Virus record (IMG/VR): IMGVR_UViG_3300021376_000164
Span: 1 to 36,657 of that record
From: a virus
Length of the DNA: 36,657 nt
Strand: one strand, 5' to 3'
In this document: positions 14,004 through 36,657 of the stretch, piece after piece
Layout of the letters: each line of letters begins with the position of its first letter
How positions within the stretch are numbered: position 1 is the first letter of the stretch
Notes under the pieces: model-generated
Databases searched by the model: none
What the model was told of the DNA's origin: nothing
Seen by the model: the letters and a program-made list of their open reading frames with translations, nothing else
Translations under genes and position numbers: made by a program

Positions 14004-15122
14004 ATGGACCCGAACGTACTTAGACTTGCAATGGGCGCGGGTGCTGGGCCGAGTGGCCCCCAGTATGAACTCTACACCTTTGGATCTAACGGCCAAGGGC
14101 AACTTGGCCTAGGAAACACGACCAACCGTTCATCTCCCGTTCAAGTTGGAGCGTTGACAACGTGGAGTAGCGTCGCAGGCGGGCAATTCCACACCGCAGC
14201 TATCAAAACCGACGGAACTTTGTGGGCTTGGGGAGCCAACGGCCACGGTCAACTTGGCCTTGGCGACACGGGCTACCGTTCATCTCCCGTCCAAGTCGGA
14301 GCGTTAACCACATGGTCAAGCGTAGCTTGTGGACAAAGATTCACCACAGCTATCAAAACCGACGGAACATTGTGGACTTGGGGATACAACTACTTCGGTC
14401 AACTCGGCCAAGGAAATACAACCGACCGTTCATCTCCAGTGCAAGTTGGCGCGTTAACAACGTGGTCAAAAGTCGCCGCGCCCTTTAGTGGAAACCACAT
14501 CGCAGCCATTAAGACCGACGGCACGCTGTGGACCTTTGGACGCAACAACGCTGGCCAACTTGGCCTTAACGACACAACCGACCGTTCATCTCCCGTTCAA
14601 GTTGGCGCGTTAACAACGTGGTCAAAAGTCGCCGTAGGTAACTTCTACACCGCAGCCATCAAAACTGACGGCACTTTGTGGGCTTGGGGATCCAACAGCC
14701 AAGGGCAACTTGGCCTAGGAGATACAACTAGCCGTTCATCTCCCGTCCAAGTAGGAGCGTTAACGACGTGGAGTAGCGTCGCAGCGGGAGGCCTTCACAC
14801 CGCAGCCATTAAAACGGATGGAACATTCTGGACCTTTGGATTCAACAACGCTGGCCAACTCGGCCAAGGAAACACGACCTACCGTTCATCTCCCGTTCAA
14901 GTTGGAGCGTTGACAACGTGGAGTAGCGTCGCAAACGGGCAAACACACACCGCAGCCATCAAAACCGACGGAACTTTGTGGATCTTTGGGCAAAACACTA
15001 CTGGTCAACTTGGGTTAGGGGACACGACCAACCGTTCATCTCCAGTCCAAGTTGGAGCGTTGACAACATGGTTCAGAGTTGCAGCAGGAACCAACCACAC
15101 CGCAGCCATTACCGAGGAATAA
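14004..15122 (+). CDS. RCC1-repeat beta-propeller protein (seven blades)
   Basis: 372 residues: a short N-terminus (MDPNVLRLAMGAGAG) followed by seven RCC1 repeats, each with the pattern (W/F)GxNxxGQLGLGxTTxRSSPV, QVGALTTWSSV and HTAAIKTDGTLW. Seven repeats close one RCC1 propeller. RCC1 propellers are interaction modules known mostly from eukaryotes and some bacteria. Located straight after the fibre gene, it may form a receptor-binding head or a decoration on the tail. The DNA repeats are nearly identical and base use appears more A/T-rich than in the flanking head genes, which suggests acquisition. Confidence 0.85.
   Translation: MDPNVLRLAMGAGAGPSGPQYELYTFGSNGQGQLGLGNTTNRSSPVQVGALTTWSSVAGGQFHTAAIKTDGTLWAWGANGHGQLGLGDTGYRSSPVQVGALTTWSSVACGQRFTTAIKTDGTLWTWGYNYFGQLGQGNTTDRSSPVQVGALTTWSKVAAPFSGNHIAAIKTDGTLWTFGRNNAGQLGLNDTTDRSSPVQVGALTTWSKVAVGNFYTAAIKTDGTLWAWGSNSQGQLGLGDTTSRSSPVQVGALTTWSSVAAGGLHTAAIKTDGTFWTFGFNNAGQLGQGNTTYRSSPVQVGALTTWSSVANGQTHTAAIKTDGTLWIFGQNTTGQLGLGDTTNRSSPVQVGALTTWFRVAAGTNHTAAITEE
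14077..15110 (+). repeat. seven 150-bp near-identical RCC1-encoding repeats
   Basis: The marker CGTTCATCTCC recurs at 14127, 14277, 14427, 14583, 14733, 14883 and 15033: spacing 150 bp each time, except one of 156 bp between the third and fourth. Blocks around the marker, such as GTTCAAGTTGGAGCGTTGAC, are shared almost base for base between copies. Recent duplication or gene conversion is likely, and blade number could change by recombination. Confidence 0.85.
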
Positions 15123-34695: not shown

Positions 34696-34905
34696 ATGAA
34701 CATGATCACGAACACGAACACCTCCACCGCCCGGATCCGCTACGCGACCACGAAAGCGATACCCGTTGGTTACAACTACGCCCGCGCGATGCCCAACGCC
34801 ACCTTCCCGAAGTGGTTTGAGGCGGCGCGAAAGTGGTCGACTGCCACGCACCAATTGCACCGCGATAAGTCGGGCGCGGTGCTATGGGCGTCGTCGTTGG
34901 GATAG
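34696..34905 (+). CDS. small hypothetical protein (69 aa)
   Basis: ATG 34696, in a gap otherwise free of genes, preceded by an A/C-rich leader (34670-34695) without ribosome site. Thr/Asn-rich N-terminus (NMITNTNTSTARIRYATTKA), then aromatic and basic residues (FPKWFEAARKWSTATHQLHR). No family recognised. Confidence 0.45.
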   Translation: MNMITNTNTSTARIRYATTKAIPVGYNYARAMPNATFPKWFEAARKWSTATHQLHRDKSGAVLWASSLG

Positions 34906-34963
34906 GTTGGCGCGCGATTTACATCCCTTAACATTGGCTATGCCCTAGACACCGTGAGACCCA

Positions 34964-34975
34964 CACCCAACCCAC
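34964..34975 (+). repeat. CACCCAACCCAC, copy 2, before the 70-aa gene
   Basis: Second identical copy of the 12-base repeat at 34636-34647, ending eight bases before ATG 34983. A shorter relative, ACACAACCCA, lies at about 34314-34323 before the 93-aa gene. Confidence 0.6.
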
Positions 34976-34982
34976 ACCTACA

Positions 34983-35195
34983 ATGATTGCCATACACTAC
35001 CACAGCGAGAAATTGATCCAGCGCACCGCCAGCGGCGCCGCCTGCTATCGCGCCAAATGGCACGAGGCTCCCCTGCCTCAGTTCAGCGCCGCGCTCGCCG
35101 GCACGCAGAATCGTCGCGGCACCACGCTGGTCTGGGTCAAGCCGAACGAGACATTCGCCGACGCCGTGGCCCGCCGCGCTACGGAGAAGTGCTAA
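34983..35195 (+). CDS. small hypothetical protein (70 aa)
   Basis: ATG 34983 after a C/A-rich leader. IAIHYHSEKLIQRTASGAAC then YRAKWHEAPLPQFSAALAGT; ends one base before the endolysin ATG, so it may share its transcript. No family recognised. Confidence 0.5.
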   Translation: MIAIHYHSEKLIQRTASGAACYRAKWHEAPLPQFSAALAGTQNRRGTTLVWVKPNETFADAVARRATEKC

Positions 35196-35196
35196 A

Positions 35197-35580
35197 ATGC
35201 GCTTACTCCTCCTCACCGTGGCCCTCGCCGCCACGTCCTACGCAGCGCCGCCCGAAGCGTTTTGGCGCGCACTGCACCACGTCGAATCGTCCGGTCGCCG
35301 TGGCGGCCTGATCCTCGGCGATGAAGGCCGCAGCCGTGGACCACTACAGATCATGCGCGGCTATCATGCCGACTCGCGCGTGGCCGGTGCTTACGAGCAG
35401 GTTGACGACTTGGCCTACTCGCGGCGTGTCGTGACTGCCTATCTGAAACGCTACGCTCCGAAGGCTTGGGCGGAGGGCGACGTCGAGACGCTGGCTCGCG
35501 TCCACAACGGCGGGCCTCGCGGTGCTAGCAAGCCGCAGACCAAGGCCTACGCAGCGCGCGTGCGGAGGGCGATGCAATGA
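35197..35580 (+). CDS. secreted endolysin (lysozyme/transglycosylase-like)
   Basis: 127 residues. N-terminus MRLLLLTVALAATSYA is a Sec-type signal peptide (basic residue, Leu-rich core, AxA-like end before APPE), so export of the enzyme may not require a holin pore. FWRALHHVESSGRRGG puts E30 in the catalytic-helix position of lysozyme-like transglycosylases; DEGRSRGPLQIMRGY corresponds to the substrate loop, and AYLKRYAPKAWAEGDVETLA with RVHNGGPRGASKP completes the fold as in phage transglycosylases. Degrades murein at lysis. Overlaps the next gene (ATGA). Confidence 0.78.
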   Translation: MRLLLLTVALAATSYAAPPEAFWRALHHVESSGRRGGLILGDEGRSRGPLQIMRGYHADSRVAGAYEQVDDLAYSRRVVTAYLKRYAPKAWAEGDVETLARVHNGGPRGASKPQTKAYAARVRRAMQ

Positions 35581-35756
35581 GCCGTACGCCAGCACGACCG
35601 GGACGCAAGCCGTCGCCAGTCGGCGTCAAGGTCATGATCCCTTGGCGTGTCTCGCCTCGCCTCGTCGAGCGCCTGCGCTGGCAGGCGGCAAAGCAAGGTC
35701 TGCAACCATCTGAAGTTCTTTCCCGAATTATTGAACGCAATGCACCTCCCGTCTAA
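35577..35756 (+). CDS. ribbon-helix-helix protein 1 (59 aa)
   Basis: ATG 35577 overlaps the endolysin stop. After a basic Pro-rich arm (MSRTPARPGRKPSPVG) the strand VKVMIPWRVSP and helices RLVERLRWQAAKQG and QPSEVLSRIIERN give the strand-helix-helix order of Arc/CopG-type dimeric DNA-binding proteins. Its last five codons and stop lie in the first copy of a 22-bp tandem duplication. Probable transcription regulator. Confidence 0.65.
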   Translation: MSRTPARPGRKPSPVGVKVMIPWRVSPRLVERLRWQAAKQGLQPSEVLSRIIERNAPPV

Positions 35757-35778
35757 ACGCAATGTACCTCCCGTCTAA
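35735..35778 (+). repeat. 22-bp tandem duplication at a gene junction
   Basis: ACGCAATGCACCTCCCGTCT plus AA (35735-35756) is directly followed by the same 22 bases with one change, C to T (35757-35778). Copy 1 holds the end and stop of the first ribbon-helix-helix gene; copy 2 holds the start of the second, read in another frame because 22 is not a multiple of three. Confidence 0.9.
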
Positions 35779-35908
35779 AGTAAAGGTCTCGGTCGTCCTC
35801 ACGACCGACCAAGTCAACGCGCTGCGCAACATCGCCGTCCAGCGCCAATTGAGTCTATCCGACGTCGTCCGCGAGGCGGTGCGCCTGATGCTCGACACGC
35901 CTCGGTGA
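35762..35908 (+). CDS. ribbon-helix-helix protein 2 (48 aa)
   Basis: ATG 35762 lies within the second copy of the 22-bp duplication, five bases after the stop of the first RHH gene. Strand KVKVSVVLTTDQVNAL, helix RNIAVQRQLS and helix LSDVVREAVRLMLD: a minimal Arc/CopG fold. No ribosome site, so translation may depend on coupling. Its stop overlaps the GTG of the next frame. Likely a paralogue of, or partner for, RHH protein 1. Confidence 0.65.
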   Translation: MYLPSKVKVSVVLTTDQVNALRNIAVQRQLSLSDVVREAVRLMLDTPR

Positions 35909-36264
35909 ATGCGCTCACGATCTGCGCAACGATCCTTGGCGGGCTGAGTCTCGTCTGTTCGGTCGTCGTTCTCGTATTTGCACATCGCCAGTATCGGCGC
36001 TGGCGCAAACGTCGGTTTTACCTCTACGCGAATCGCACAAATGTCACTACACGTCACGGGTCACGAAGCAGCGAGCTGTGTCCGGTTCCTAGAAAAAGCG
36101 TTTTTGAAGTGGGAGCGCGAGCAGTCGAGGCGCGTCGCGCTTTCGGCCAGCCAAGCACCAAAGACCAAGGAGCAGCCGCACGGCAAGCCGACAAAGCGCA
36201 AGCCGGGAACCGTGCAGCGCGTATGGACACCCGACCAGATCGCAGCCATCACGAGGGCAATTGA
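35905..36264 (+). CDS. possible membrane protein overlapping the next gene (119 aa)
   Basis: GTG 35905 overlaps the previous stop (GTGA). N-terminus ALTICATILGGLSLVCSVVV then LVFAHRQYRRWRKRRF: one membrane helix followed by a strongly basic stop-transfer, convincing as a small inner-membrane protein (spanin- or Rz-like topology possible). The frame stays open to 36264, but from about residue 46 it overlaps the HTH gene and reads as low-complexity, so only the first part may matter, or the two genes truly overlap by 224 bases. Confidence 0.45.
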   Translation: MNALTICATILGGLSLVCSVVVLVFAHRQYRRWRKRRFYLYANRTNVTTRHGSRSSELCPVPRKSVFEVGARAVEARRAFGQPSTKDQGAAARQADKAQAGNRAARMDTRPDRSHHEGN

Positions 36265-36424
36265 AACGAAGCAGACGACGCGCAGCCTTTCTGCTGAACT
36301 TGGAATTCCCTACGGCACTTTATGGACCAAGCGGACGCAGCTCGAACACTCTTTCAGACTCTCACGCCTGAGCGATGCGACCAGCTCATCCGAGCAGCGC
36401 GTCGACGTGCCGCATACAGATTAG
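36041..36424 (+). CDS. helix-turn-helix protein (127 aa)
   Basis: Of the in-frame starts, ATG 36041 gives sensible protein (MSLHVTGHEAASCVRFLEKA). A Lys/Pro-rich linker (QAPKTKEQPHGKPTKRKPG) separates it from a C-terminal helix-turn-helix: WTPDQIAAITRAIETKQTTR and SLSAELGIPYGTLWTKRTQL, resembling Psq/homeodomain-like DNA binders. Probably a regulator or packaging-related DNA binder. Upstream part overlaps the membrane protein frame. Confidence 0.6.
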   Translation: MSLHVTGHEAASCVRFLEKAFLKWEREQSRRVALSASQAPKTKEQPHGKPTKRKPGTVQRVWTPDQIAAITRAIETKQTTRSLSAELGIPYGTLWTKRTQLEHSFRLSRLSDATSSSEQRVDVPHTD

Positions 36425-36444
36425 CACGTCTTCAACTTTCCGTT

Positions 36445-36657
36445 ATGGAACACAATAACACAACCACCGCAGAGCAAGTTCGCGTTCTCCTCGCTCCGGT
36501 CATGAGTCAGCTCAAGAGCGCTCTTCCCGGTGCGAGTCACCACTCGGTCACCGTTGCATACTGGGGCGACCACAAGGTCTTCTTCGGCGTCGGAATCGCC
36601 GCTGGCCAGGAACATCTGGCCAGCACTTACTGCGACACGCCAGCCGAAGCTATCGAA
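36445..36657 (+). CDS. partial hypothetical protein at the right edge
   Basis: ATG 36445 opens a frame with no stop before the window ends (71 codons): MEHNNTTTAEQVRVLLAPVM then SHHSVTVAYWGDHKVFFGVG and HLASTYCDTPAEAIE. If the ends of the window are joined it gains one Arg codon and stops at TGA 4-6, a 72-residue protein ending five bases ahead of the first gene's ribosome site. Alpha-beta appearance; no family recognised. Confidence 0.55.
   Translation, partial: MEHNNTTTAEQVRVLLAPVMSQLKSALPGASHHSVTVAYWGDHKVFFGVGIAAGQEHLASTYCDTPAEAIE

Follow-up and report, generated by a model that had tools for sequence, protein, structure and literature searches.

The junction between two small genes, RHH1 and RHH2, in the analyzed DNA of an uncultured phage (a stretch of 36,657 nt, considered as a whole and referred to here as the window) was most probably reshaped when 22 nt were duplicated in tandem, in one event of fairly recent date. 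This event would have separated two genes that formerly overlapped while leaving both proteins intact, that is, a natural 'decompression', and we put the probability of this reading at about 0.88. The overlap is found in relatives and is absent from the window, both reading frames of the window are intact, and the RHH1-RHH2 distance changes from -17 in the close relatives to +5 in the window.

The repeat consists of two head-to-tail copies of a 22-nt unit, located at 35734-35755 and 35756-35777, with 21 of the 22 positions identical (TRF score 85, 35734-35779). Each copy reads AACGCAATG-C/T-ACCTCCCGTCTA, and the sole mismatch is C35743 in copy 1 versus T35765 in copy 2, in agreement with the single base difference described in an earlier note on this DNA. 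Because an AA dinucleotide is present at both borders of the unit, the register can slide by up to two bases (as far as 35779) and the alternative registers are equivalent. The 22-bp duplication that the earlier note placed at 35735-35778 is the same repeat shifted one base to the right. A brute-force scan of the 36.7-kb window for other tandem duplications (15-100 nt, at most 10% mismatch) detected none. The 20-nt core, with up to three mismatches allowed, was matched in the window only at the two copies (mean of 0.00 matches in shuffled sequences), and the repeat is not due to chance.

Both the old stop codon and an ATG are present in each copy. Copy 1 (35734-35755, plus strand) contains the end of RHH1, with its TAA at 35754-35756, as well as the by-passed former ATG of RHH2 (35740-35742). 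Copy 2 (35756-35777, plus strand) contains the RHH2 start in use (ATG, 35762-35764), and T35765 in place of C35743 turns codon 2 of RHH2 from His into Tyr. The duplicated unit was thus correctly described before as ending one gene and beginning the next in another frame. A new gap of 5 nt (35757-35761, plus strand) lies between the RHH1 stop and the RHH2 start, where close relatives have a 17-nt overlap. A further product of the duplication is a 12-codon ORF (35740-35778, plus strand), in which the former RHH2 ATG is read into copy 2 in a third frame. This ORF stops at the TAA of copy 2 (35776-35778), which is also the stop of an ORF at 35647-35778.

RHH1 (35577-35756, plus strand) encodes a ribbon-helix-helix-like protein of 59 aa, and RHH2 (35762-35908, plus strand) encodes a CopG/Arc-like ribbon-helix-helix candidate of 48 aa. 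Both genes are under purifying selection, with dN/dS values between the window and three relatives of 0.04-0.12 for RHH1 and 0.18-0.24 for RHH2. For assignment to the RHH family, we considered a strand followed by two helices together with a family profile match. Neither window protein reaches the curated cut-offs in its Pfam matches. Among homologues, the RHH_10 profile was matched by all 11 examined for RHH1 (best 3e-4) and the RHH_1 profile by all 12 examined for RHH2 (best 8.5e-8), the window member being below the cut-off in each case. Monomer models predicted helices at residues 27-40 and 44-55 of RHH1 (pLDDT 75) and at residues 15-28 and 32-45 of RHH2 (pLDDT 84), with no strand in either model. 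In a structure search of the PDB, CopG ranked first for RHH1 at a non-significant E-value of 2.3, and a search of the PDB with the RHH1 sequence gave no match. The best PDB structure matches of RHH2 were mostly RHH proteins (E 0.09 or worse), and RHH2 also had a profile match to 2k9i (E 4e-4). With the window proteins themselves below the Pfam cut-offs, the RHH label is weakly supported, that of a probable rather than a proven family membership. The junctions flanking the pair are also tight: the upstream ORF (35197-35580) overlaps RHH1 by ATGA, and the ORF at 35905 overlaps the RHH2 stop by GTGA.

Relatives of the junction were collected from IMG/VR. Eight loci were identified with the RHH1 query and 21 with RHH1 alignments, and a wider RHH1 profile recovered the same 21; scans with RHH2 identified five and eight loci. 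The contigs L012 and L013, which matched RHH2 over part of its length at 44%, were left out of the junction counts. Three close relatives (L001, L002 and L003) align to the window around the junction at about 81-84%. Each of them contains the 26-nt block GAACGCAATGCACCTCCCGTCTAAAG once, and the alignment shows the window to be 22 nt longer at this place. In these close relatives, ATGCACCTCCCGTCTAA encodes both the C-terminal end of RHH1 and the N-terminal end of RHH2, giving the 17-nt overlap. An overlap of this length was observed in 14 of the 21 loci, namely the three close relatives and 11 loci of a second group with different bases, and the remaining seven have a 4-nt ATGA overlap (four with an RHH2 homologue and three with another gene).

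The earlier note had proposed a search for single-copy forms in related phages, and such forms are indeed present: all 21 IMG/VR loci with RHH1 lack tandem repeats at distances of up to 80 nt from the RHH1 stop, and a pattern scan of IMG/VR for the 22-nt unit revealed three contigs, all with a single copy. Annotated phage records yielded neither a DNA match to 34900-36657 nor a tblastn match to RHH1. Near-identical adjacent copies in one lineage, with single copies in relatives, are the pattern of a derived short tandem duplication. As the overlap and the single copy occur in relatives and the duplication is confined to the lineage of the window, parsimony suggests that a single copy with overlap was the ancestral state and that the duplication is derived.

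The same loci bear on the suggestion, made in the earlier note, that the junction is a snapshot of how a new start codon arose. It is true that the ATG in use by RHH2 sits physically in copy 2. However, the identical ATG in the same frame already occurs, once only, in L001, L002 and L003, and an ATG is found at the same position in 11 further loci. An in-frame upstream TTG is also a possible RHH2 start in two of the three close relatives and in several loci of the second group; the ATG is the conserved choice across relatives. Creation of the RHH2 start by the duplication is thereby refuted, and the chance left to it is negligible. Relatives with a non-duplicated junction and the same starts had been named in advance as evidence against this idea, and these are what was found. 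The junction does represent an evolutionary snapshot, but not of a new start.

It should be considered whether the repeat was generated by an assembler that joined two strain variants, one with C and one with T at the differing position, head to tail. The source record is an environmental virus assembly, the duplication is seen in one lineage only, and the base that differs between the copies could be a strain variant. Against this, a separately deposited shorter contig with other end points, VGHX01000094.1 (titled as a Betaproteobacteria MAG, K_Offshore_40m), contains exactly the same junction within 8584 nt at 100% identity, and the one-base difference between the copies speaks against a simple artefact. 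An assembly error at the repeat, which the earlier note had raised, is very unlikely on this evidence, although the two records of the junction may share a source population or even reads.

Taken as a real event, the separation of RHH1 and RHH2 could have proceeded in one step. Replication slippage between the two AA dinucleotides probably gave the duplication, which would have struck a site where the end of RHH1 and the beginning of RHH2 shared 17 nt in different frames. The unit spans the whole overlap, such that the end of RHH1 would be kept in copy 1 and the beginning of RHH2 in copy 2; because the whole overlap is contained in the unit, both proteins remain intact whatever the unit length modulo three. 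Within the overlap, third positions of RHH1 are second positions of RHH2, and third positions of RHH2 are first positions of RHH1. Almost no silent change is possible there, since each base is doubly coding. The C to T change in copy 2 would also cause an Ala to Val replacement in an overlapped RHH1, and the separation may thus have freed this RHH2 change from its RHH1 cost. The duplication itself was presumably selectively neutral or nearly so. Had it occurred as early as the split from L001, the approximately 14 freed sites would be expected to carry about 1.5 to 3.6 changes, and none was seen (probability of none 0.23 to 0.03), which is weakly compatible with a duplication younger than this split.

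Conservation of the unit also has to be weighed in connection with a second proposal of the earlier note, in which the two copies are operator half-sites placed at the junction of two regulators. RHH1 and/or RHH2 would bind them, and the copies would have been selected there. Both proteins resemble RHH DNA-binding proteins, 22 bp corresponds to about two helical turns, and the three close relatives show no variation in the unit. This invariance, however, is expected from dual coding, which alone would conserve the unit among close relatives and makes an operator unneeded. Furthermore, the repeat is not conserved as a repeat (two copies in 0 of 21 relatives), the window has no additional copy at up to three mismatches, and the unit contains no inverted repeat of at least 12 nt. 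It is also embedded in a tight series of genes, and a scan for promoters and terminators near the junction found no terminator and only one sigma-70-like site, which is weak and lies on the other strand (35755-35727, minus strand). The half-site proposal is therefore unsupported, and we consider it highly improbable.

A small inverted repeat of the form TCGGTCGT-4 nt-ACGACCGA was observed in the early codons of RHH2 in the window (35789-35808). At the same place, the loci L022-L032 of the second group have a stem of 5 bp, shifted in register, with two pairs changed on both sides. Covariation in this stem is 0.291 versus 0.203 in shuffled alignments, with 7 of 500 shuffles as high, a weak signal from few haplotypes. 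This inverted repeat is perhaps a better candidate for an operator or an RNA hairpin than the 22-nt repeat.

With regard to translation, RHH1 is preceded by a Shine-Dalgarno-like GGAGG (35564-35568, plus strand) with an anti-SD duplex of -10.0 kcal/mol, calculated for pairing between the anti-SD tail and the 20 nt upstream of the start codon. By this energy, no Shine-Dalgarno site is present before RHH2 in the window (+1.2 kcal/mol); the corresponding values are 0.1, 0.4 and 1.3 kcal/mol in L001, L002 and L005, and the region upstream of RHH2 in L003 pairs weakly (-3.3 kcal/mol). Because RHH2 has no Shine-Dalgarno site of its own in both states, it is probably made by coupled reinitiation from ribosomes finishing RHH1, both at -17 and at +5. 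The available part of PMC10666635 takes distances from -8 to +10 to predict termination-reinitiation; the +5 gap of the window is within this range and the 17-nt overlap of the relatives is outside it. Coupling in the ancestor with the 17-nt overlap is less certain than coupling now, and the window combines the short gap with the missing ribosome-binding site in the manner of a termination-reinitiation pair. Folding of the mRNA at the junction revealed no significant structure relative to shuffles (z 0.43 in the window and -1.37 in L001).

A change in RHH2 output might itself have been the target of selection, through relocation of the stop, formerly within RHH2, to a point 5 nt upstream of the RHH2 start, together with a decoy second AUG and a less-buried RHH2 AUG. 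For the RHH2 AUG, the predicted probability of being unpaired is 0.51-0.72 in the window versus 0.03-0.55 across the close relatives L001, L002 and L003 (three window sizes used for prediction). In addition, RHH2 differs between the window and L001 by five non-synonymous and seven synonymous changes versus zero and 10 between L001 and L002 (Fisher p 0.04, uncorrected and for a contrast picked post hoc). Nevertheless, AUG accessibility scatters with the window size used and the groups overlap (0.35-0.66 in L027 and 0.43-0.67 in L034), the junction RNA of the window does not exceed its shuffles in structure, and one lineage cannot show selection. Such adaptive re-tuning appears unlikely.

A more far-reaching idea is that a reinitiation relay replaces the 17-nt overlap. 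The ribosome would pass from the RHH1 stop to the decoy AUG with its 12-codon ORF, and the end of this ORF again overlaps the start of RHH2 by 17 nt. The relay would change the RHH2:RHH1 ratio and allow the ends of the two proteins to diverge from each other. In general terms, a tandem duplication with a unit covering an entire overlap leaves both proteins unchanged, and such duplications would then be a favored natural exit route from gene overlap for phages. We regard this rewiring as doubtful. Separation of the two genes by a near-neutral duplication is the reading that we prefer.

Several other features of the window and its relatives were recorded. In two distant relatives (L037 and L038), a different ORF of 263 aa lies between RHH1 and RHH2 and is joined to RHH1 by ATGA; RHH2 in this case is at L043 1658 and L044 3001. 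Repeat arrays with units of 18-45 nt, in multiples of three, are located upstream of RHH1 in three distant relatives (L004 4695-4890, L008 927-1090 and L005 1-100). The window itself contains about seven 150-nt repeats (with a 300-nt super-repeat) at 14082-15109 within the ORF 14004-15122, whose product we take to resemble an RCC1-type repeat protein. The counterparts of the last (36657) and first bases of the window are about 2.2 kb apart in a single contig, L001 (6058 to 8221). Such spacing makes a permuted or circular phage genome probable, and about 2 kb may be missing from the window.

Overlaps between phage genes are common, and point mutation offers no easy way out of them, as every base serves in two reading frames. 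Together with its named relatives, the RHH1-RHH2 junction presents the states before and after a one-step exit from such an overlap, and illustrates that a repeat may resemble an operator yet be a by-product of an overlap. The underlying mutation is ordinary, and the junction is a tidy natural example rather than a new kind of switch. A limited search of the open-access literature, which is not proof of absence, found no published case in which a gene overlap had been naturally duplicated in a phage.

The available parts of PMC10666635 and PMC6728339 describe termination-reinitiation at short junctions, ATGA among them. The ATGA of four of the 21 RHH1-RHH2 loci and the predictive distance in the window are similar to those systems, whereas in 14 of the 21 loci the 17-nt overlap exceeds the common -8/-4/-1 classes. 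Loss of overlap between neighboring bacterial genes, for example between E. coli and Salmonella, is attributed to point mutations or gene loss in the part of PMC3843671 that is available. The phage junction likewise shows a conserved overlap that became separated in one lineage; that part of PMC3843671 does not mention duplication, and here the overlap itself was duplicated.

The junction can also be viewed as the natural counterpart of 'decompressed' phages made in the laboratory. Refactored T7 is reportedly an engineered phage in the same class as decompressed phiX174. For phiX174, the available part of PMC11527146 describes an engineered 'decompression' that placed copies of the overlapping coding regions next to each other, and the presence of the overlap region twice is a direct parallel to the window. 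Unlike that engineered genome, as far as it is described there, the phage junction is natural and concerns one site of 22 nt, and the old start in copy 1 is left in place and merely runs into the 12-codon ORF.
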